From assembly GCF_000568405.1 (NCBI RefSeq), contig NZ_ARZY01000030.1, positions 1 to 58,131 of the forward strand: a stretch of DNA of 58,131 nucleotides, in the 5' to 3' direction. Every line of letters begins with the position of its first letter. Position 1 is the first letter of the stretch. Positions 3,554 to 20,421 of the stretch are shown piece by piece. The stretch comes from Catenovulum agarivorans DS-2. Lineage in GTDB: Bacteria; Pseudomonadota; Gammaproteobacteria; Enterobacterales; Alteromonadaceae. A program made the translations under genes and the position numbers. The notes below the pieces were generated by a model. It worked only from the letters and a program-made list of their open reading frames with translations. It did no database searches and was not told the origin of the DNA.

Positions 3554-3850
3554 ATGAACTTATCCACTAAACAGAAACAACATTTAAAAGGTTTAGCACA
3601 TTCGCTAAAACCTGTCGTACAACTCGGCAGCAACGGTTTAACTGAAGGCGTTTTAGCTGAAATAGAAAACGCTTTAAGCCACCACGAATTAATTAAAGTT
3701 AAAATTCCGACCGATGAACGCGATCTAAAAAAGGCCATCATAGACGCAATTGTGCGTGAAACTCAAGCTTTTCACGTACAAACTATCGGCCACACCTTAA
3801 TTTTATTTAAACCATCGGACGAGAAAAAAATTCAACTGCCGAAAGCTTAA
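3554..3850 (+). CDS. yhbY: CRM-domain ribosome assembly RNA-binding protein YhbY
   Basis: Small RNA-binding protein associated with pre-50S particles. The frame is open from 3503, but the homologous start is the ATG at 3554 (MNLSTKQKQHLKGLAH), giving 98 residues against 97 in E. coli YhbY. The CRM signature GSNGLTEGVLAEIENAL is present around residues 25-41, and the protein ends with the typical IGHTLILFKPS strand. It is divergent from rlmE with only about 80 bp between the two starts, so both promoters lie in 3471-3553. A strong bidirectional terminator follows. Confidence 0.93.
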   Translation: MNLSTKQKQHLKGLAHSLKPVVQLGSNGLTEGVLAEIENALSHHELIKVKIPTDERDLKKAIIDAIVRETQAFHVQTIGHTLILFKPSDEKKIQLPKA

Positions 3851-4432: not shown

Positions 4433-7400
4433 GCATCTACCCTTTCGTGTAAAGACTGAACTGAATTAACAACATTTCTATCGTCAGCTTCATGCGCCAT
4501 ACAAGTCGCGAATGCTGCATTTAAGGTAGTTGTGTAGTTCACTTTATAACGCAATGCACCACGACGAATTGGTACAGAATCAGTAATCGCCTGACGACCT
4601 TCAGTTGTATTCACAATGTAGGTGTACTCACCATTTTTAATGCGGTCAACAATATGAGGACGACCTTCAGACACTTTATTTACTGTACGAACCTCAATAC
4701 CTGCATCTTCCAAAATAACCGCAGTGCCCTTAGTTGCATCGATTTGGTAACCAATTTTCACCAACTCTTGTGCAAGTTCAGCAACTCGTTTTTTGTCGCT
4801 ATCACGCACCGACAATAATACTCGGCCAGTTTTAGGTACAGAATCGCCAGCGCCCAAACGCGACTTAGCAAAGGCTTCTGCAAATGTATCACCAATCCCC
4901 ATAACCTCACCTGTAGAGCGCATTTCTGGGCCTAAGATTGGGTCAACACCAGGGAATTTGTTAAATGGAATGACCACTTCTTTAACTGAATAATAAGGTG
5001 GAATAATCTCTTTAGTGATACCTTGTTGTGCTAACGACTGACCAACCATAACTCTTGCCGCAACTTTAGCTAATGGAATAGCTGTTGCTTTTGAAACAAA
5101 TGGTACGGTACGCGCAGCTCGTGGGTTCACTTCTATTAGATAAAGTTCATTATCTTTAACTGCAAACTGAGTATTCATTAAGCCAACTACATTCAATTCG
5201 AACGCTAGCTTAGTGACTTGCTCGCGTAATCCATCTTGAATTTCTTTGCTTAGTGAATATGGTGGTAACGAACACGCTGAGTCACCTGAATGCACACCAG
5301 CTTGCTCAATATGTTCCATAATACCGCCAATCACAACGGTTTCACCATCACAGATAGCGTCGATATCCACTTCAATAGCGTCATCTAAGAAACGGTCTAA
5401 TAATACTGGAGAGTCATTAGATACTTTAACCGCTTCGTTCAAATAACGTTTTAAGTCGTTAATATCGTAAACAATTTCCATTGCGCGGCCACCTAATACA
5501 TAAGATGGGCGTACAACAAGTGGGAAGCCGATATCAGCCGCTTTGGCTAATGCTTCTTCCATCGTTTTAACCGTCGCATTTGGTGGCTGTTTCAAGCCTA
5601 AACGCTCGATTGCTTGCTGGAAACGTTCGCGGTCTTCAGCGCGGTCAATTGCATCAGGTGAAGTACCGATAATTGGTACACCATTCGCTTCTAACGCACG
5701 GGCTAGTTTTAACGGTGTTTGACCGCCGTATTGAACAATTACACCTTTAGGTTTTTCTAAACGAACAATTTCTAATACGTCTTCTAGCGTAACAGGTTCA
5801 AAGTACAAACGATCAGATGTGTCATAGTCAGTTGATACGGTTTCAGGGTTACAGTTAACCATAATGGTTTCGTAACCGTCTTCGCGCAATGCCATCGCAG
5901 CATGTACACAACAGTAATCAAACTCAATACCTTGACCGATACGGTTAGGGCCACCACCTAATACGATAATTTTATCTTTATCTGTTGGTTGCGCTTCACA
6001 TTCCTCATCGTAGCTTGAATACATATAAGCTGTCGAAGTAGAAAATTCTGCAGCACAAGTATCAACACGCTTGTAAACAGGGAAAATTTCAAACTGTTGA
6101 CGCTTTTTACGTACTTCACTTTCTGATACGCCAATTAAATCAGCAATACGGCTATCAGCAAAACCTTTGCGTTTTAAGCTGTATAAGAAATCTTTATCTA
6201 AACCAGCTAAACCTTTTTCACTAACAGCTTGCTCTGATTTAACTAAATCTTCAATTTGAACTAAGAACCACTTATCGATTTTCGTAATGGCAAAAATTTC
6301 ATCTGTCGTCCAACCAGCGCGGTATGCATCAGCGATGTACCAAATACGCTCTGCACCTGGCTCTTTCAATTCATGGCGAATTTTCGCTTTTGCTTCTGAG
6401 TCGGTGATATCAATGATTGGATCAAAGCCATTAACACCCACTTCTAAACCACGTAAGGCTTTTTGCATTGACTCTTGTTGGTTACGGCCAATGGCCATAA
6501 CTTCACCAACAGATTTCATCTGCGTGGTTAATCTGTCATTTGCACCTGCAAATTTTTCAAAGTTAAATCTTGGGATCTTAGTAACAACATAATCGATTGA
6601 AGGTTCAAACGATGCAGGTGTTTTACCGCCGGTAATGTCATTGTCTAACTCATCAAGCGTATAACCAACCGCTAATTTAGCGGCGATTTTCGCAATTGGG
6701 AAACCCGTTGCTTTAGAGGCTAATGCAGATGAGCGAGAAACACGTGGGTTCATCTCAATGATTACCATACGGCCCGTATCAGGGTTGATACCAAACTGTA
6801 CGTTTGAACCACCGGTTTCTACACCGATTTCACGCAATACTGCCATAGAGGCATTACGCATGATTTGATATTCTTTGTCAGTTAAGGTTTGTGCTGGCGC
6901 AACTGTAATAGAGTCACCTGTGTGAACCCCCATAGGATCAAAGTTTTCAATTGAACAAACAATGATACAGTTGTCTTTTTTGTCACGAACCACTTCCATT
7001 TCATACTCTTTCCAACCAATTAATGATTCATCTATCAATAATTCGCTGGTTGGAGATAGGTCTAAACCACGAGTACAAATCTCTTCAAATTCTTCGATGT
7101 TATACGCAATACCACCACCAGAACCACCCATAGTGAACGACGGACGGATAATACATGGGAAGCCAATGCGTGATAATACATCCATAGCTTCGTCCATTGA
7201 GTGGGCTGTTTCAGCACGCGGACACTCAAGACCGATGTTTTTCATCGCTTGGTCGAAACGCTCACGGTTTTCAGCTTTGTCGATTGCATCAGCCGTTGCA
7301 CCGATTAATTCACAACCAAACTTAGCTAAAACACCATGGTGATCTAAATCAAGCGCACAGTTAAGTGCAGTTTGACCGCCCATTGTTGGCAATACAGCGT

Positions 7401-10686: not shown

Positions 10687-10870
10687 TTAAGTTGAACCAG
10701 CACTAAGCTAAACGGGCGACTAGGGTTCCGGTTTGTTACTAAAACAAATGCCTGGTCCGAGAGTTGCCAACCTAGCTGCACAACTTCCTAAAGCAATGTT
10801 GCTTGTGGTTTTAGTGTTTGCGTCAGCAAGGGTTACACGGCGGGATAAAAGCCCGGGAGGTTCAATTTAA
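10687..10870 (+). promoter_or_regulatory. Guanidine-I riboswitch (ykkC class)
   Basis: The conserved ykkC elements appear in order: CTAGGGTTCCG (10720-10730), GGTCCGAGAG (10754-10763), and ACACGGCGGGATAAAAGCCCGGGAG (split here as 10835-10847 and 10848-10859). A 12-bp P1 stem (10687-10698 with 10859-10870, one G-U pair) closes the aptamer. Downstream bases offer alternative pairings: GGAGGT (10856-10861) with ACCTCC (10875-10880), and TTACACGG (10833-10840) with CCGTGTAA (10893-10900). These would break the aptamer and form the likely expression platform. Guanidine normally turns such operons on; the exact switching route is not clear from sequence. Confidence 0.93.
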
Positions 10871-10917
10871 TGAGACCTCCTGTGCCCAGAATCCGTGTAA
10901 ACTTTGGAGAACGCAAC

Positions 10918-11949
10918 ATGAAAAGCATAAAAACACTCGCGCTACTACTCGCATTAACCCTTTCAAATCAATCTATTGCAAAAGATAAATTTTCAATATG
11001 CTGGTCAATTTACGTTGGTTGGATGCCGTGGGAATATGGCGATAGCTCAGGCATAGTCAAGAAGTGGGCTGACAAATATAACATCGAAATAGACGTAGTG
11101 CAGATTAACGACTACATAGAGTCAATTAATCAATATAGCGCAGGACAATTTGATGCTTGTACTATGACCAATATGGACGCACTGACCATACCAGCCGCTA
11201 GCTTTATTGATAGCACTGCCTTGATTGTCGGCGACTTTTCCAACGGTAATGATGGTGTAGTCCTTAAAAATAAATCCCGCCTAGCTGATATTAAAGGTCA
11301 AACGGTTAATTTAGTTGAACTCAGTGTATCGCATTACCTATTAGCACGCGGTTTAGAATCGGTTGGTATGACTGAACGCGATGTCAATGTTGTTAATACC
11401 TCTGATGCTGATCTAGTTGCCGCGTATTCAACCAAAGATGTTACATCTGTGGTGACGTGGAACCCGCTATTGTCGGAAATTACAGCTCAACCAACCGCTG
11501 AAAAAGTATTTGATTCGTCAGATATTCCAGGTGAAATCATCGACTTGTTAGTCGTAAATACACAAACACTCCAAGCCAATCCAAACTTTGGTAAAGCCTT
11601 GGTCGGTGCTTGGTATGAAATTATGAGTAAGATGAAAAATGACCAAGTTCTCACCCATATGGCGAAAGCATCCGGCACAGATTTAGCTGGTTACAAAGCA
11701 CAATTAGCCAGCACCAAGATGTTTTATTCCGCCGCCGATGCGGTTGCTTTTACCAACAATAAACAACTCACGCAAACAATGAAATACGTTGCGGAATTTT
11801 CTTTTAAACACGGAATATTAGGCGAAGGAGCACCTGACGCTGGCTTTATAGGGATTGAAACACCAGCTGGCGTATTTGGTAATCCAGCCAATATTCAGCT
11901 GCGTTTTGACCCAACTTATATGCAAATGGCTGCCGACAATAAGCTATAA
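10918..11949 (+). CDS. ABC transporter periplasmic substrate-binding protein, probably for guanidine
   Basis: 343 residues from the ATG at 10918, which has a GGAG Shine-Dalgarno eight bases upstream; the longer frame from 10870 starts inside the riboswitch and is rejected. A signal peptide (MKSIKTLALLLALTLSNQSIAK) precedes a NitT/TauT-like binding fold (ICWSIYVGWMPW at the mature N-terminus, FDACTMTNMDAL around residue 78). Proteins of this type next to ykkC riboswitches and guanidine carboxylases are thought to import guanidine. It is the first gene of the operon, 18 bp before the permease gene. The ligand is inferred from context. Confidence 0.85.
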   Translation: MKSIKTLALLLALTLSNQSIAKDKFSICWSIYVGWMPWEYGDSSGIVKKWADKYNIEIDVVQINDYIESINQYSAGQFDACTMTNMDALTIPAASFIDSTALIVGDFSNGNDGVVLKNKSRLADIKGQTVNLVELSVSHYLLARGLESVGMTERDVNVVNTSDADLVAAYSTKDVTSVVTWNPLLSEITAQPTAEKVFDSSDIPGEIIDLLVVNTQTLQANPNFGKALVGAWYEIMSKMKNDQVLTHMAKASGTDLAGYKAQLASTKMFYSAADAVAFTNNKQLTQTMKYVAEFSFKHGILGEGAPDAGFIGIETPAGVFGNPANIQLRFDPTYMQMAADNKL

Positions 11950-11967: not shown

Positions 11968-12792
11968 ATGAAAAAACTTGTCAATATTGAGCCAAACCGA
12001 TCGCTAAAAGTTTTTCTGGCAATCATTCCGTTTGTAATCATGTTGCTGATCTATTGGTCAGCTTCAAATGAACGATTGGCAGCAAACCCTTACGATAAAT
12101 TGCTACCGAGCTTTAGCCAAATCTCGGCAGCAATTGACCGATTGGCTTTTACTGAAGATAAACGCAGCGGCGAGTACTTATTTTGGGTTGATAGCGCAGC
12201 AAGCCTTTATCGCATAGGTTTAGGCGTAGCCATCAGTGCCACAATGGGGTTGATTTTAGGTGTCCTTTCAGGGCTACTACCAACATTTCGTGCGGGTTTC
12301 TCGCCGTTGATCACCATAATATCGCTGATTCCGCCTATGGCAGTATTGCCAATATTGTTTATCACATTTGGTTTAGGTGAACTTGCCAAAGTAATGCTGA
12401 TAATTATTGGTACTGCACCTGTGATCATACGAGACATCCAAAATCAAGTTCGCCAGCTGCCGACTGAAATTATGGTCAAAGCACAAACTTTGGGGGCATC
12501 AACTTGGTTACTCGCAACACGTGTTGTGTTGCCGCAAATCATGCCTAGGTTAATAACCGCGGTCAGACTATCGCTTGGCACAGCTTGGCTATTTCTAATT
12601 GCCGCAGAAGCAATTGCTGCCCAAGAAGGACTGGGTTATCGAATTTTCTTAGTACGTCGCTACATGTCAATGGACGTAATTTTACCCTACGTTATGTGGA
12701 TCACAGCTTTAGCATTCGCAATGGACTTTAGTCTACGCAAACTTTCAGAGCTTTGCTTCCCTTGGTATCACCAACAGGAGGCGGCTAAATGA
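11968..12792 (+). CDS. ABC transporter permease, probably for guanidine
   Basis: 274 residues with a short N-terminal cytoplasmic part, a first membrane segment at about 14-30, then the five-helix BPD_transp_1 core from about residue 75. The EAA loop that contacts the ATPase is visible as AQTLGASTWLLATRVVLPQIMP, split around residues 172-193. It belongs to the nitrate/sulfonate/taurine permease type. Its stop overlaps the ATPase start by four bases (ATGA), so the two are translationally coupled. Confidence 0.88.
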   Translation: MKKLVNIEPNRSLKVFLAIIPFVIMLLIYWSASNERLAANPYDKLLPSFSQISAAIDRLAFTEDKRSGEYLFWVDSAASLYRIGLGVAISATMGLILGVLSGLLPTFRAGFSPLITIISLIPPMAVLPILFITFGLGELAKVMLIIIGTAPVIIRDIQNQVRQLPTEIMVKAQTLGASTWLLATRVVLPQIMPRLITAVRLSLGTAWLFLIAAEAIAAQEGLGYRIFLVRRYMSMDVILPYVMWITALAFAMDFSLRKLSELCFPWYHQQEAAK

Positions 12793-13571
12793 GTTTGTTA
12801 TCAATTGAAAATGTTTGGAAATCTTATGGTGAGGTACAAATCCTTGAGCGTCTCAAACTCAAAGTTGACGAAGGTGAATTTGTCTCTATGGTCGGTGCTT
12901 CAGGTTGCGGAAAAACCACGTTACTGAAAATGATCTTAGGGAGTGAAACTCCAACTAGAGGTCAAATTCTACTAAACAATCAACCAATCGCGGCAGAGCC
13001 CGATGAACAACGTGGCATTGTATTCCAAAAATACTCGGTATTTCCACACCTAAGTGTTTTGCAAAACGTCATGATAGCTGATGAGTTTAGTGCAGCTAGA
13101 TTTTTAGGCCGTACGTTTGGCAAAAAGAAACGAGCAATAAAAGACAAGGCAATGACTTTTATTCAAGCTGTTGGTTTAAGTCATGCGGTGGATAAATACC
13201 CGCATCAATTGTCAGGTGGTATGCAGCAACGACTCGCCATAGCTCAAGCGTTGATGAAATCGCCCAAAATCTTATTGCTAGACGAACCGTTTGGCGCACT
13301 CGACCCAGGCATTCGTAAAGATATGCACCAGCTTATTCGAAAAGTCTGGAAAGAAAACAAACTGACTATTTTTATGGTGACTCACGACATTCAAGAAGGT
13401 TTCGAGCTCGGCTCTCGCCTTTGGGTATTTGATAAGGTTCGCCAAGATCTTCAAGCGCCACACGCCTATGGTGCTTGCGTAACTTATGACATCCAGTTGC
13501 AAAATCAATCGACTCAACAAGTCAGCGAAATAATCGCGAAAAAATATACAAAAGAGGTGATCAATATATGA
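12789..13571 (+). CDS. ABC transporter ATP-binding protein, probably for guanidine
   Basis: 260 residues. Walker A GASGCGKTT (36-44), signature LSGGMQQR (141-148), Walker B ILLLDEPFGALD (from 161) and the switch histidine in MVTHD are all intact, so it should be an active ATPase. It pairs with the preceding permease and binding protein as a NitT/TauT-type importer. It overlaps both neighbours by ATGA (12789-12792 and 13568-13571), a tightly packed operon. Confidence 0.9.
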   Translation: MSLLSIENVWKSYGEVQILERLKLKVDEGEFVSMVGASGCGKTTLLKMILGSETPTRGQILLNNQPIAAEPDEQRGIVFQKYSVFPHLSVLQNVMIADEFSAARFLGRTFGKKKRAIKDKAMTFIQAVGLSHAVDKYPHQLSGGMQQRLAIAQALMKSPKILLLDEPFGALDPGIRKDMHQLIRKVWKENKLTIFMVTHDIQEGFELGSRLWVFDKVRQDLQAPHAYGACVTYDIQLQNQSTQQVSEIIAKKYTKEVINI

Positions 13572-14278
13572 TTTTATACAAAGACAGTCTGCCATCAGGC
13601 AAACATTGGTCCATGAAAATGCGCCGGGGTACCAGCTTGCGCTTGATTGACAAAACAGGCGGCGCTAACGTTGGCGTGTTGTTTTACAACCCCGACAACC
13701 TGCTAGAACGCTATAACGCGCCTGATACATTGAAATGTCAACACACCTTTAAACTGACTAAAGGCCACTGTTTATATTCTGATATGGGACGAATTTTTTG
13801 CGCAATTACCGACGACAGCTTTGGTTGGCACGACACTGTTTGTGGTAATAGCAATGCAGCTATGGTGACTCAAAAGTGGGGGAAGCGAGATTACCAAAAT
13901 CATCGAAACCACTGGAAACAAAATGGCTTCGATGCATTTTTAGTCGAAGGCGCCAAATACGGTTTAAATAAACAAGATCTCGCAGCAAACTTAAACGTAT
14001 TCACTAAAGTAGAGCCCGACAACGAGGGGCACTTACGATACGCCGAACAGCAATCTACAGCAGGCGACTTTATTGAACTGCGTTTTGAAATGGACACCTT
14101 GGTGTTATTTCATACTTGCCCGCACCCACTGAGCTCATCAACTGAATACCCCCAGTTTGAAGTGGAGTATCAAATTTTAACATCTGCACCTATCGCAGAA
14201 GATGACCTTTGCAAAAACTCATGCCCCGAGAATCAACGTGGCTATGAAAACAACCGTTTATATCATTTAGGGTTATAG
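13568..14278 (+). CDS. Carboxyguanidine deiminase subunit (DUF1989, urea-amidolyase-associated protein), long form
   Basis: 236 residues, DUF1989 family. Shared family landmarks are [17 protein letters not shown] (about residues 38-54), DMGRIF, and WHDTVCGNS. Pairs of such proteins next to ykkC-linked carboxylases form the heteromeric carboxyguanidine deiminase (CgdA/CgdB), which releases ammonia from carboxyguanidine to give allophanate; which letter fits this subunit was not decided. It starts on the ATGA overlap with the ABC ATPase gene and is followed 10 bp later by its paralogous partner. Confidence 0.85.
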
Positions 14279-14288
14279 GAATAAAATT

Positions 14289-14927
14289 ATGATTACGCAG
14301 AGCAAATTACAAGTTGAACAAGCCAGTTTTCGTGACGTCGTAGACGCTGGTGATTACTACCTAAAAGTAGTTAAAAAAGGCCAAATCATTCGCATATTGG
14401 ATTTAGAAGGTAATCAGGCCGCTGATACCTTATTTTATAACGCCAATGATGTAAGCGAGCGCTATAGCGCAACTGATACTATTCGAGAACAGGGTAACTT
14501 ATATCTAACCACAGGCAGCGTGTTAATGTCTGACGAATGTAACCCTATGCTAAAAATTGTTGCAGACACCTGTGGTCGACACGATACCGTTGGAGGGGCT
14601 TGTGCAACCGAAAGCAATACAGTGCGCTACGCACTTGAAAAAAAATGCATGCATGCCTGTCGTGATAGTTGGCTATTAGCGATTGCAGAAAACGAAGAGC
14701 TGGGACTGAGCAAAAAGGATATTACTCATAATATTAACTTTTTCATGAATGTTCCTGTTACGGCTGACGGTAAACTGACATTTGCCGACGGTATTAGTGG
14801 TGCAGGCAAGTATGTCGAGTTGGAAGCATTAATGGATGTGGTGGTATTAATTTCCAATTGTCCGCAACTCAATAACCCTTGTAATGCCTACAACCCAACG
14901 CCGATTGAAGTGTTAATTTGGGCGTAA
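14289..14927 (+). CDS. Carboxyguanidine deiminase subunit (DUF1989), short form
   Basis: 212 residues, paralogous to the preceding gene: [26 protein letters not shown] aligns with it when split around residues 37-62, and [14 protein letters not shown] replaces [10 protein letters not shown] cysteine-rich stretch [11 protein letters not shown] (about 118-128) is specific to this subunit. It is preceded by TAGGA seven bases before the ATG. Together with its partner it is expected to convert carboxyguanidine to allophanate. It is followed by a 78-bp gap that holds a second guanidine riboswitch. Confidence 0.85.
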
Positions 14928-14944
14928 CGCGCAAAGCGCAGTAT

Positions 14945-14987
14945 CCGGGACGACCCGGTTACTTTTGTTTGAAGCGGGACGACCCGC
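14945..14987 (+). promoter_or_regulatory. Guanidine-II riboswitch (mini-ykkC) inside the operon
   Basis: Two hairpins with identical ACGA loops: CCGGG-ACGA-CCCGG (14945-14958) and GCGGG-ACGA-CCCGC (14974-14987), joined by a 15-nt linker. This is the full guanidine-II signature, in which the two ACGR loops kiss when guanidine is bound. The carboxylase start codon follows 18 bases after the second hairpin, so it probably controls translation of the carboxylase separately from the upstream guanidine-I element. Confidence 0.93.
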
Positions 14988-15005
14988 GAAGACGAGTGAA
15001 ATACT

Positions 15006-18000
15006 ATGTTTAACACAGTCCTAATTGCCAACCGAGGCGCAATCGCCAGCCGTATCATTCGCACTTTAAAACAACTCGGTATAAAAAGTATTGCTGTATA
15101 CGCTGAAGCAGATAAAGAATCTTTACACGTAACTCAGGCCGACGAAGCCTATAGTTTAGGCGACGGTGCTGCTGCAACAACCTATTTAAATCAACAGAAA
15201 ATAATAGACATCGCCAAACAATCAGGCGCTCAGGCAATCCATCCTGGCTATGGATTTTTAAGTGAAAATGCAACTTTTGCTGAAAAACTACAACAACTAA
15301 ATATCAGCTTTATTGGCCCCCGCGCACAGCAAATGATTGATTTTGGATTAAAACATCAAGCTCGCGAAATAGCACAACAAGCGAATGTACCTTTGGTCCC
15401 AGGCAGCGGGCTCATTGCAGATTTAGCCGAACTGGTCGCTTACGCTAAAGAAGTCGGATTTCCCGTCATGTTGAAAAGCACTGCTGGCGGTGGTGGTATC
15501 GGTATGCAAAAGTGCGACTCAATTGCAGAGCTAGAAAAAGCTTTTATAAACGTAAAACATTTAGGCGCGCAGAATTTCGCTAACGATGGCGTATTTGTAG
15601 AAAAATTTGTCGAAAAAGCGCGTCACATAGAAGTTCAAGTTATCGGGAATGGTTTTGGTCAGGTTGTCACTTTAGGTGAGCGTGACTGTTCAAGCCAGCG
15701 TCGCAACCAAAAAGTAATCGAAGAAACGCCAGCACCCAACTTACCTGAAGCCACCCGCAGCGCGATGCTGACAACAGCTAAAAATTTAATGGCATCGGTT
15801 GATTATTTAAACGCAGGCACAGTTGAATTTATTTACGACCACGACCAAGACAAATTTTATTTCCTTGAAGTTAACACCCGCTTACAGGTTGAGCATGGTG
15901 TAACCGAAATGTGTTACCAAGTAGATTTAGTAGAATGGATGCTCAAAGTTGCATTTAGTGAAAGTGTCCTCAACGAAGCTACTGATTTATCTTGTTTGGA
16001 GACGCTAAAGCCGATTGGCCATGCAATACAAGCACGTATCTATGCTGAAAACCCAGCCAAAAATTTTCAACCCTCTGCTGGTTTACTCACCCAAGTAGAA
16101 TGGCCAACGGAAAACGCCAGAGTCGACCACTGGGTAGAGGCTGGTTTAACCGTATCTCCATTTTTTGACCCTATGCTAGCTAAAGTAATAGTTCATGCAA
16201 ACAACCGACACGCGGCAATAGCCAAGTTAGACAACGCATTAACCAACACTAAACTTTATGGTGTCGTTAGCAATATAGATTATGTGCAGCAAGTTTTAGC
16301 CAATGAAAGTTTTCTGCAAGGTAAAATTTTCACTCGCAGCTTAAATGACTTTAAAGCCAATTTTACCGGATTTGAAGTATTGAAAGCTGGCACTATGACA
16401 ACAATTCAAGATTATCCCGCGCGCACTGGCTACTGGGATATTGGCGTACCGCCATCAGGCCCGTTTGATTTTTATTCATTCCAATTAGCCAATCGCTTAC
16501 TCAACAATTCAACCAATGCTGCGGGTTTAGAGATCACCCTACAAGGGCCGACTCTAAAGTTCTATCACGATTGCCAAGTTGCAATTTCGGGAGCCGAAGT
16601 TGAGATCACCTTAGACGATCAAGCACAAAACAACCACCAAGTAATTGCAATTAAAGCGGGTCAAACACTAAAAATTGGTAAAGTTACCGCAGCTGGAGCG
16701 CGGGCCTATTTAGCTGTAAGTGGCGGCATACAATGCCCAGATTATTTAGGTAGTAAGAGTACTTTCACCTTGGGTCAATTCGGTGGTCATTGTGGCCGAG
16801 CGTTGCGCATAGGTGATTTCCTATCGATAAAAAAATCAGCAAATCAGTTAAATAATACAACAGTTAGCCAAATACCCGCAGATGTTGTGGCACCACTCAC
16901 CAACAACTGGACAGTACGTGTCGTATATGGCCCTCATGGTGCACCTGACTTTTTCATCGAACAAGATATCCAAACCATTCAGTCGCACACGTGGAAAATT
17001 CATTACAACTCAAGCCGAACGGGTATCCGATTGATTGGCCCAAAACCTCAATGGGCACGAGAAACTGGGGGAGAAGCAGGTTTACATCCATCTAATATTC
17101 ACGACAACGCCTACGCCTTCGGCACGGTAGACTTTACTGGAGATATGCCAGTAATTTTAGGCCCTGATGGCCCAAGTTTAGGCGGTTTTGTTTGTCCATT
17201 TACCGTAATTGCAGCAGATTTGTGGAAACTGGGACAACTGAAAGCCGGAGATAACTTAAATTTCGAAGTGGTTGATTTACCCACAGCCAAACAAATTGAG
17301 ATCGCACAAAACAACCAAATTGAAAACTTAACGAATCAAACTATTAGCTATGCACCAGCGACGATAAACACACCCATTTTGGACACACTAGAAACCGACG
17401 ACGGTGAACCTAACTTAGTGTTCCGCGCAGCGGGAGACAAGTTTTTATTGGCGGAATACGGTGAATTAGTATTGGATTTAACTTTACGTGCGCGTGTACA
17501 GGCGTTGCTGGAAGCTTTGCAGGCAAAAAATATCATGGGTGTATTGGAGTTAACGCCGGGCATTCGTTCATTGCAAATTCACTATGACAACTTAACTGTT
17601 GATGTTTATCAATTAATCCAAATGATAAAAGATATCGATTTAAGTTTAGGAGACACTAGGCAGCTAAGCTTTGAATCGCGCATCGTCCACCTACCTTTAA
17701 GCTGGAATGACATTGCGTGTCAGCAAGCTATTGATAAATATGTGCAATCAGTGCGTAAAGATGCCCCATGGTGCCCTTCTAACCTTGAGTTTATTAAACG
17801 CATAAACGGCTTAGAGAGCATAGAACAAGTTAAAGATATTGTATTTAATGCACATTATTTAGTTTTAGGTTTGGGTGACGTGTATTTAGGCGCACCAGTC
17901 GCAACACCATTAGACAAATGCCATCGTCTAGTGACCACTAAATATAACCCTGCACGTACCTGGACAGCGGAAAACTCTGTTGGTATAGGCGGTGCCTACA

Positions 18001-18621: not shown

Positions 18622-20421
18622 ATGAGCGCAATCAACCTAACAATCAGTGAATTACGCCAAGCATATAGCAATAACACCCTAACTGCAGAATCGGTTATAT
18701 TTGCCGCTGTTGATAAAGCAAAAGCACAACAAGCCGACACAGGCCAGGCTATCTGGCTGAACATATTGTCCGAACAACAAATCAATGCGTATTTAGCCAA
18801 CTTAAAAGATAAATCGCCACAAACACATCCACTCTATGGCATCCCTTTTGCGATCAAAGACAACATTGATTTGGCCCATGTACCAACAACAGCAGCTTGC
18901 CCACAGTTTAGTTACATCCCAGAAAAATCAGCATTTGTTGTAGAAAAATTAATAGACGCGGGCGCTATTCCAATTGGAAAAACCAATCTAGACCAGTTTG
19001 CAACTGGGCTAGTTGGTACACGCTCACCCTATGGTGAAACCCCAAATGCATTTAATGCGGATTATATTTCTGGCGGTTCAAGCTCAGGTTCAGCGGTAGC
19101 AACTGCCTCTGCTACAGTAAGTTTCGCTTTGGGTACAGATACTGCAGGTTCAGGTCGAGTGCCAGCCTGCTTTAATAATCTCATAGGCCTAAAACCAACT
19201 AAAGGATTGTTATCAACCGCAGGCGTGGTACCTGCTTGTCGCAGCTTAGACTGTGTCAGTATTTTTGCGTTAACTGCCAATGATGCAAATACTGTGTTTC
19301 AGGTTGCAGCCGAATATGATGTTGATGATTGTTATGCACGAACCAACCCCTTAGCCAACCAACAGCCGGTAGCAGTCAAACAAGATTTTACCTTTGCAAT
19401 TCCACTAGCTGACCAGCTCGAGTTTTTTGGTGACCAAGCCTATCAAACAGAATTCAACAAAGCGGTGTCTAAGCTTGAAAAGTTAGGCGGGCACAAACTC
19501 GAATTAGATTTTTCCCCCATGCTACAAGCAGCCAAATTATTGTATGAGGGTCCTTGGGTAGCAGAGCGGTATTTAGCCACAAAAGAGGTTATCGAAAACA
19601 CACCGCAAGCTATGCTAGAGGTTACTCACAGCATAATTTCGGCTGGAAACAAACCTTTCGCAACCGATTGTTTTGCCGCTTTGTACAAATTACAAGCGTT
19701 GAAAAAACAGGCAGATTTACTGGTTGAGCAAGCTGACTTTTTAGTCACTCCAACCGCAGGACGACATTATACTCGCAATGAGATAAGCCAAAATCCGATA
19801 GGGTTTAATTCAAACCTTGGTTACTACACCAATTTTATGAATTTATTAGATTTTGCAGCCATTGCAGTACCAACGAGCTTTACCAGCAATAAAATGCCAT
19901 TTGGTATCACTCTGTTCAGCTTTGCCTTACAAGACCAAAAACTGCTGGCTTATGCTGATAAAATAATGCAGCACAATAAACTCAGCTTAGGGGCAACAAA
20001 CTTGCCGTTTACTTCCGCCCCTTTACCTTCCAACAACCTGGGTTTTATTGATATAGTGGTCTGTGGAGCCCACCTATCTGGAATGGCGCTTAATTGGCAA
20101 TTGACCGAACGCAACGCTGTATTGCTAGAGCAAACCACCACAGCCAAAGCCTATCAAATGTATGCTGTAGCGGGCACAGTCGAACGACCAGCACTCATTC
20201 GCTCTAATCAAAATACTCAATGTTTTGAAGTTGAAGTATGGAGAATGCCCACAGAACATTTTGCTTCGTTTGTTCAAGGCATTGCTCAACCTTTAGGTAT
20301 AGGTAAAGTTGAACTGATAGATGGCCGCTTTATTAACGGATTTATTGCTGAAAGTAGCGCACAAACTGGTAAAAACATTAGCGAGTTTGGCAGCTGGCGT
20401 AAATACAAACAAACACAATAA
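18622..20421 (+). CDS. atzF: Allophanate hydrolase
   Basis: Hydrolyses allophanate to ammonia and CO2, the last step of guanidine (or urea amidolyase) breakdown. 599 residues: an amidase-signature domain (1 to about 450) and the C-terminal domain typical of full-length allophanate hydrolases (LGFIDIVVCGAHLSGMALN onward, split near residue 474). The Ser-cisSer-Lys triad is visible as K79, S153 and S177, with the 74- and 24-residue spacing of AtzF. The Shine-Dalgarno GGAGG lies inside the end of the carboxylase gene and there is only one base between the two genes. The symbol follows AtzF/DUR-type usage. Confidence 0.92.
   Translation: MSAINLTISELRQAYSNNTLTAESVIFAAVDKAKAQQADTGQAIWLNILSEQQINAYLANLKDKSPQTHPLYGIPFAIKDNIDLAHVPTTAACPQFSYIPEKSAFVVEKLIDAGAIPIGKTNLDQFATGLVGTRSPYGETPNAFNADYISGGSSSGSAVATASATVSFALGTDTAGSGRVPACFNNLIGLKPTKGLLSTAGVVPACRSLDCVSIFALTANDANTVFQVAAEYDVDDCYARTNPLANQQPVAVKQDFTFAIPLADQLEFFGDQAYQTEFNKAVSKLEKLGGHKLELDFSPMLQAAKLLYEGPWVAERYLATKEVIENTPQAMLEVTHSIISAGNKPFATDCFAALYKLQALKKQADLLVEQADFLVTPTAGRHYTRNEISQNPIGFNSNLGYYTNFMNLLDFAAIAVPTSFTSNKMPFGITLFSFALQDQKLLAYADKIMQHNKLSLGATNLPFTSAPLPSNNLGFIDIVVCGAHLSGMALNWQLTERNAVLLEQTTTAKAYQMYAVAGTVERPALIRSNQNTQCFEVEVWRMPTEHFASFVQGIAQPLGIGKVELIDGRFINGFIAESSAQTGKNISEFGSWRKYKQTQ

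Follow-up and report, generated by a model that had tools for sequence, protein, structure and literature searches.

The window analysed here is a stretch of 58,131 nucleotides from Catenovulum agarivorans DS-2 (contig NZ_ARZY01000030.1). It carries an apparent operon with a guanidine-I riboswitch at its head and an element of an unrelated guanidine-sensing class, guanidine-II (mini-ykkC), in its interior. The question raised by this locus is why one operon should possess two sensors of the same ligand, the second of them located just before the carboxylase gene.

Two guanidine riboswitches in one apparent operon

An earlier note, based on the sequence of the window, had placed a guanidine-I element at the head of the operon and had recognized the two-hairpin ACGA/ACGA signature of guanidine-II at 14945-14987, proposing covariance models as a check. 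Both assignments were borne out by an Rfam search, in which guanidine-I and guanidine-II were the only two matches at gathering score in the whole window, both on the + strand (Table 1). The guanidine-II match has an E-value of 3.9e-5, calculated for both strands of the window and multiplied by 4227 families. The span given in the note is that of hairpins P1 (CCGGG-ACGA-CCCGG, 14945-14958) and P2 (GCGGG-ACGA-CCCGC, 14974-14987). Each of these GC-rich hairpins presents an ACGA loop (14950-14953 and 14979-14982), and the 3' end of P2 lies 18 nt upstream of the gca start.

Table 1. Features of the guanidine operon in the window (all positions refer to the window)
Feature	Position	Strand	Basis
Guanidine-I riboswitch aptamer (ykkC), long P2 loop	10709..10861	+	RF00442, 81.0 bits, cut-off 63
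UUACACGG of guanidine-I aptamer core	10833..10840	+	complementary to 10893-10900; predicted unbound-state pairing
Anti-aptamer CCGUGUAA (10893-10900) and GGAG Shine-Dalgarno (10906-10909) of first gene	10893..10909	+	sequence, fold, duplex
ABC substrate-binding protein	10918..11949	+	TIGR03427, 558 bits
ABC permease	11968..12792	+	ABC permease families, all below their curated cut-offs
ABC ATPase	12789..13571	+	ABC ATPase families, those shown all below curated cut-offs; 4-nt overlap with permease gene
Carboxyguanidine deiminase subunit, UAAP1 type (name by analogy)	13568..14278	+	TIGR03425, 322 bits; 4-nt overlap with ATPase gene
Carboxyguanidine deiminase subunit, UAAP2 type (name by analogy)	14289..14927	+	TIGR03424, 340.5 bits
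Guanidine-II (mini-ykkC) riboswitch aptamer	14942..14986	+	RF01068, 42.5 bits, cut-off 32; single genome copy found
GACGAG, weak Shine-Dalgarno-like stretch of carboxylase gene	14991..14996	+	predicted pairing with P1-P2 linker (fold)
Urea-carboxylase-family protein, probably guanidine carboxylase (gca), 1204 aa	15006..18620	+	TIGR02712, 1763 bits
Allophanate hydrolase (atzF)	18622..20421	+	TIGR02713, 742 bits; 1 nt after gca

A search of the genome (143 contigs, 4.57 Mb, E <= 0.1) found one copy of each class, in both cases at the window site. The predicted fold of 14929-15030 has an energy of -33.3 kcal/mol versus a mean of -23.2 kcal/mol for shuffled sequences (z -3.3; 2 of 200 shuffles as good), and five Catenovulum-type loci (L003-L006 and L029) keep both hairpins, with ACGA or ACGG loops, before the carboxylase gene. 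The Rfam score, the single genome copy, the fold z and the hairpins of the relatives together rule out a chance match, and the guanidine-II observation is confirmed. Nor is the element a stray exporter switch, since the downstream gene is gca and a single copy was found in the genome.

The elements and genes follow each other on the same strand in the order guanidine-I, importer, two deiminase-type genes, guanidine-II, carboxylase and allophanate hydrolase, with 4.2 kb and five genes between the two riboswitches. The successive gene gaps are 18, -4, -4, 10, 78 and 1 nt; thus, every following gene except that of the carboxylase lies at most 18 nt from its predecessor, and the 78-nt gap before the carboxylase gene is filled by guanidine-II. 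Judging from gaps of at most 78 nt and the common strand, the genes are probably co-transcribed. The start of the substrate-binding gene was placed at 10918, which gives a signal-peptide-like start with GGAG 8 nt upstream, and not at the in-frame ATG 10870. The latter is a second possible start of the first gene, with a GGAGG at the 3' end of the guanidine-I aptamer (10857-10872); this upstream ATG is absent from the five Catenovulum-type loci.

The UAAP1- and UAAP2-type proteins are named carboxyguanidine deiminase subunits by analogy, after the published operon. In an alignment with the Kluyveromyces (yeast) urea amidolyase 5i8i, Asp709 of the carboxylase corresponds to Asn1330, which we take to be the residue meant by the Asp/Asn rule. 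According to this rule, the discriminating residue is Asp in guanidine carboxylases and Asn in those for urea (PMC12186494), and the window enzyme is therefore probably of the guanidine rather than the urea type. The Rfam matches and gene families thus uphold the description of an apparent operon with two guanidine sensors of unrelated classes, the second of which immediately precedes the carboxylase gene.

A published arrangement and its occurrence

The earlier note did not know of this pairing as a standard arrangement. Here it has to be corrected, as the pairing is already in print for three enterobacteria and for Vreelandella boliviensis, which rules out the idea that it is undescribed. 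A 2025 review (PMC12186494) describes the same order in Raoultella, Erwinia and Klebsiella: guanidine-I precedes the importer and deiminase genes, and guanidine-II the carboxylase gene, with that of the allophanate hydrolase directly downstream. Compared by description rather than by sequence, these operons reveal no evident difference in layout from that of the window.

In V. boliviensis, Sinn and colleagues (2025; PMC12508155) subjected both RNAs to in-line probing. As in the window, Gd-I is located in the 5' leader, followed by three ABC genes and cgdA/B, an internal Gd-II lies between cgdB and gca, and atzF is found downstream; however, mgdH and mgdL are located between gca and atzF in V. 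boliviensis and not in the window. Its Gd-I binds guanidine with a KD of 44 uM and did not bind methylguanidine in the tested range, while the KD values of Gd-II are 93 uM for guanidine and 83 uM for methylguanidine (PMC12508155). Ligand binding has thus been demonstrated for both members of a pair homologous to that of the window.

In another known system, SAM-II/SAM-V, two aptamer classes for one ligand likewise share one transcript (PMC9481103). That pair stands in tandem before one gene, whereas the elements of the window are widely separated by intervening genes. This 2022 review of tandem riboswitches gives no tandem arrangements for any guanidine class; it presumably considered neighbouring elements only. 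We conclude that the window operon is a real member of the published, and thus already known, Gd-I/Gd-II arrangement.

How common the pair is was determined in three sets of genomes, in which pairs were defined by distance and strand irrespective of the intervening genes. Among 394 genomes of the order, with elements called at E <= 0.001, guanidine-I was found in 39 and guanidine-II in 96, and in 29 of the 39 a guanidine-II element follows guanidine-I on its strand at a distance of no more than 12 kb. The spacing is 4.2-4.5 kb in 28 of these pairs and 6.8 kb in one, and two of the 29 have a guanidine-II match that does not reach gathering score. Of the ten guanidine-I genomes without the pair, three share guanidine-I coordinates with Gayadomonas (one) and Colwellia (two). 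Gayadomonas has a weak guanidine-II match (27.5 bits) 4.2 kb downstream of guanidine-I, and the two Colwellia have a long-linker guanidine-II-like form for which RF01068 reported nothing.

In a sample of 369 genomes of the class, guanidine-I occurs in 29 and the pair in 12 of them (the window's own genome included; two below cut-off). The third set, which overlaps the order sample, comprises 35 genomes with a long carboxylase match (52-88% identity), from genera such as Catenovulum, Gayadomonas, Paraglaciecola, Shewanella, Ketobacter and Celerinatantimonas. These are loci L003-L037, the only ones kept of 79 carboxylase loci, as the remaining 44 align with the query over short segments (at most 241 residues among the matches listed). 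Guanidine-I is present in 33 of these genomes and the pair in 21 at E <= 0.01 (6 of the 21 below cut-off), and two ACGR hairpins precede gca in 23 of the 35 loci. The published two-riboswitch layout is thus common among the guanidine-I genomes of the order and is also found in distant Gammaproteobacteria.

Several variants were noted in the course of this survey. Guanidine-II-like hairpins with a long linker lie upstream of gca in two Colwellia loci (L007, 6836-6945; L008, 6829-6945) and in Agaribacter (L032, 6876-6975); their P1 and P2 are 60-81 nt apart, with a third helix predicted in the linker, and RF01068 has no match at E <= 0.01 in these three genomes. In two loci a guanidine-II-like element has a position nearer the head of the operon. 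One, before a 254-aa deiminase-size gene (L012, ~5370-5420), has, by eye, ACGC and not ACGR as its first loop, and another, before two genes (L015, ~3700-3750), scores 27.7 bits, which is below cut-off. In G464, G483 and G736, two guanidine-I elements occur within about 0.7 kb, on the minus and then the plus strand, possibly heading divergent guanidine operons.

How the two elements may act

A review gives an intrinsic terminator as the usual, but not the defining, expression platform of guanidine-I. Such a platform was not recognized in the window: the longest T run after guanidine-I is three, as it is in the five Catenovulum-type loci, and a scan for terminators of the intrinsic type (Rho-dependent termination being outside its scope) detected no terminator-like + strand site between 10861 and 10918. 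The bases before the first Shine-Dalgarno sequence complement the aptamer core, and the predicted duplex between CCGUGUAA and UUACACGG forms seven of eight pairs. The fold of 10705-10925 has a z of -4.3, and relatives carry stretches similar to window 10893..10909.

The pairing between aptamer and Shine-Dalgarno region was then compared between own and foreign loci. From 95 loci, 7 without a recognizable core were removed (88 left) and a further 9 without a usable start, and the remaining 79 were grouped into 42 clusters, which reduces but does not remove kinship; the downstream genes were not all identified. The mean pairing energy is -20.4 kcal/mol with the own and -16.9 kcal/mol with foreign regions (0 of 5000 permutations as good), and the corresponding values for the window are -23.9 and -17.5 kcal/mol. 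In eight of the 42 clusters, however, the own Shine-Dalgarno region is a poorer partner than the average foreign region, and one Catenovulum locus (L006) has no clear excess of own-locus pairing. We also considered thermodynamic exposure of the first gene's Shine-Dalgarno sequence. In the free fold of the window GGAG is unpaired at two of its four positions, and none is freed when the 3' half of the aptamer is blocked; a clean switch is not supported by this calculation of accessibility.

The lack of a long T run and the complementarity to the aptamer core suggest that guanidine-I may also act on translation in this lineage. The idea that the guanidine-I/guanidine-II pair is tied only to guanidine-I elements without a T run was not upheld, as T runs of five or more follow guanidine-I in some pair loci (e.g. 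L115, L130 and L139), and in the wider group transcriptional and translational modes may both exist. By eye, the aptamer P2 is complementary to the Shine-Dalgarno sequence of the first gene in L115, L118 and L139. In L115 and L139 this coincides with the T run, which may mean a dual transcription/translation platform.

The action of guanidine-II in Catenovulum can be proposed mainly from the literature, in which the linker between the hairpins pairs with the Shine-Dalgarno sequence (PMC9094411). In the predicted fold the window linker pairs with GACGAG around P2, as in this model. On binding, guanidinium would dock P1 to P2 via the ACGA loops, and the linker should then not pair with the Shine-Dalgarno region of the carboxylase gene. 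GACGAG has a mean unpaired probability of 0.09 in the window, compared with 0.18-0.46 in five relatives, and this value rises when the linker is blocked in only three of these six loci. Co-variation of linker and Shine-Dalgarno region was tried twice and found no support for gca-linked copies. For the linker alone, 66 copies yielded 54 with both hairpins and a start, of which 41 were tested, and 2857 of 5000 permutations were as good. In the second test 1863 of 5000 were as good for gca-linked copies, and the co-variation was significant only for the wider region over all 33 clusters taken together (12 of 5000). The terminator-like scan flags P1 together with the U-rich linker, in a search that found 18 sites versus 11.4 expected by chance.

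Why a second switch before the carboxylase gene

Based on our observations, we suggest, with a probability of roughly 80%, that this is a guanidine-assimilation operon of the described Gd-I/Gd-II layout in which guanidine-II is the carboxylase block's own translational gate. The head guanidine-I would turn on the importer-deiminase block, whose genes are at most 18 nt apart or overlap by 4 nt, and possibly gate its translation as well. Translation of the carboxylase and allophanate hydrolase genes would be turned on by guanidine-II; this block, which lies beyond the 78-nt gap, probably cannot rely on close coupling. As no other gene of the operon is so far from its predecessor, the need for a translational gate of its own is the plainer reason for the second element.

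The relatives back this reason only in part. Among 33 with a readable gap before gca (L034 was excluded and L021 has no preceding gene), the gap is 77-226 nt in the 23 with guanidine-II there, a width that is partly built in, as the element itself occupies ~45 nt. In the ten without guanidine-II before gca the gaps are 2, 2, 2, 2, 2, 5, 13, 26, 26 and 104 nt, that is 2-26 nt in nine of them, and these short gaps are the informative half of the comparison. The exception is L036, in which no element was seen in the wide gap. All these lengths rest on start codons chosen by script; under another start-codon rule the 21 loci with guanidine-II before gca have gaps of 53-226 nt and L036 has one of 89 nt. 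In L028 and L033, gca lies 5 and 2 nt behind its neighbour and two ACGR hairpins are found before deiminase-size genes.

A general rule by which any gene that follows a wide gap would possess a guanidine gate of its own was not upheld. In 13 of 31 loci (L021, L025, L026 and L034, which have no guanidine-I in the locus, were excluded) another internal gap of at least 50 nt, often between the first gene and a permease-size gene, has no two-hairpin element flagged. The weaker rule for gca only, i.e. a gate where this gene is not closely coupled, is plausible and stands with the one exception of L036. The gap argument is weak, in view of the length of guanidine-II, of L036, of these 13 loci and of the script-chosen starts. 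The 13 loci slightly reduce our confidence both in the separate gate and in a translational guanidine-I (see below).

The presence of two switches can be explained in other ways. The authors of the V. boliviensis study read their pair, with a 'presumably', as bi-mechanistic: guanidine-I would control transcription via a terminator and guanidine-II translation, giving a steeper or energy-saving response as in the SAM-II/SAM-V precedent (PMC12508155; PMC9481103). The T runs of some pair loci fit this explanation, which we nevertheless regard as rather unlikely, since the short T runs of the window and the Catenovulum-type loci, the result of the terminator scan and the preference of the aptamer for its own Shine-Dalgarno region all argue against it. 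The earlier note suggested a steeper or two-threshold response, or a carboxylase kept off when guanidine falls mid-transcription. Two thresholds are not obvious, as the KD values of the V. boliviensis pair are about two-fold apart; the pair may possibly keep the carboxylase off in the way suggested.

Still less probable is that the second switch serves ligand breadth, so that methylguanidine or another alkylguanidine raises the carboxylase block through guanidine-II, guanidine-I responding to guanidine only. The specificities measured in V. boliviensis are in agreement with such a role (PMC12508155). There, however, the genes between gca and atzF are those for methylguanidine demethylation, and in the window, where only the operon was compared, atzF follows gca directly. 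Guanidine-II might also be what remains of a once separate guanidine-II-gca-atzF operon after its fusion with an importer operon headed by guanidine-I, in which case two switches would be no better than one. Switch placement does vary, as is seen in L028 and L033 and also in L031 and L035, in which guanidine-I directly precedes deiminase-size genes. The retention of the two hairpins before gca in most carboxylase-match loci and the recurrence of the pair in the order sample make this the least probable of the explanations.

The separate gate for the carboxylase block thus remains our preferred explanation, and such a gate for a loosely coupled gene would account for the second switch in a way that can be tested. 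A further proposal, which we make tentatively and consider less likely to be right than wrong, is that guanidine-I, in Catenovulum-like operons and related ones of the Gammaproteobacteria, is a translational switch, which cannot silence far genes via transcription, and that guanidine-II is the second gate wherever gca is loosely coupled. If both switches are indeed translational, the transcript could be made constantly, and guanidine would gate the two blocks at the level of the ribosome. For marine bacteria of the Catenovulum type, at least, this would call into question the common view that guanidine-I works through a terminator.
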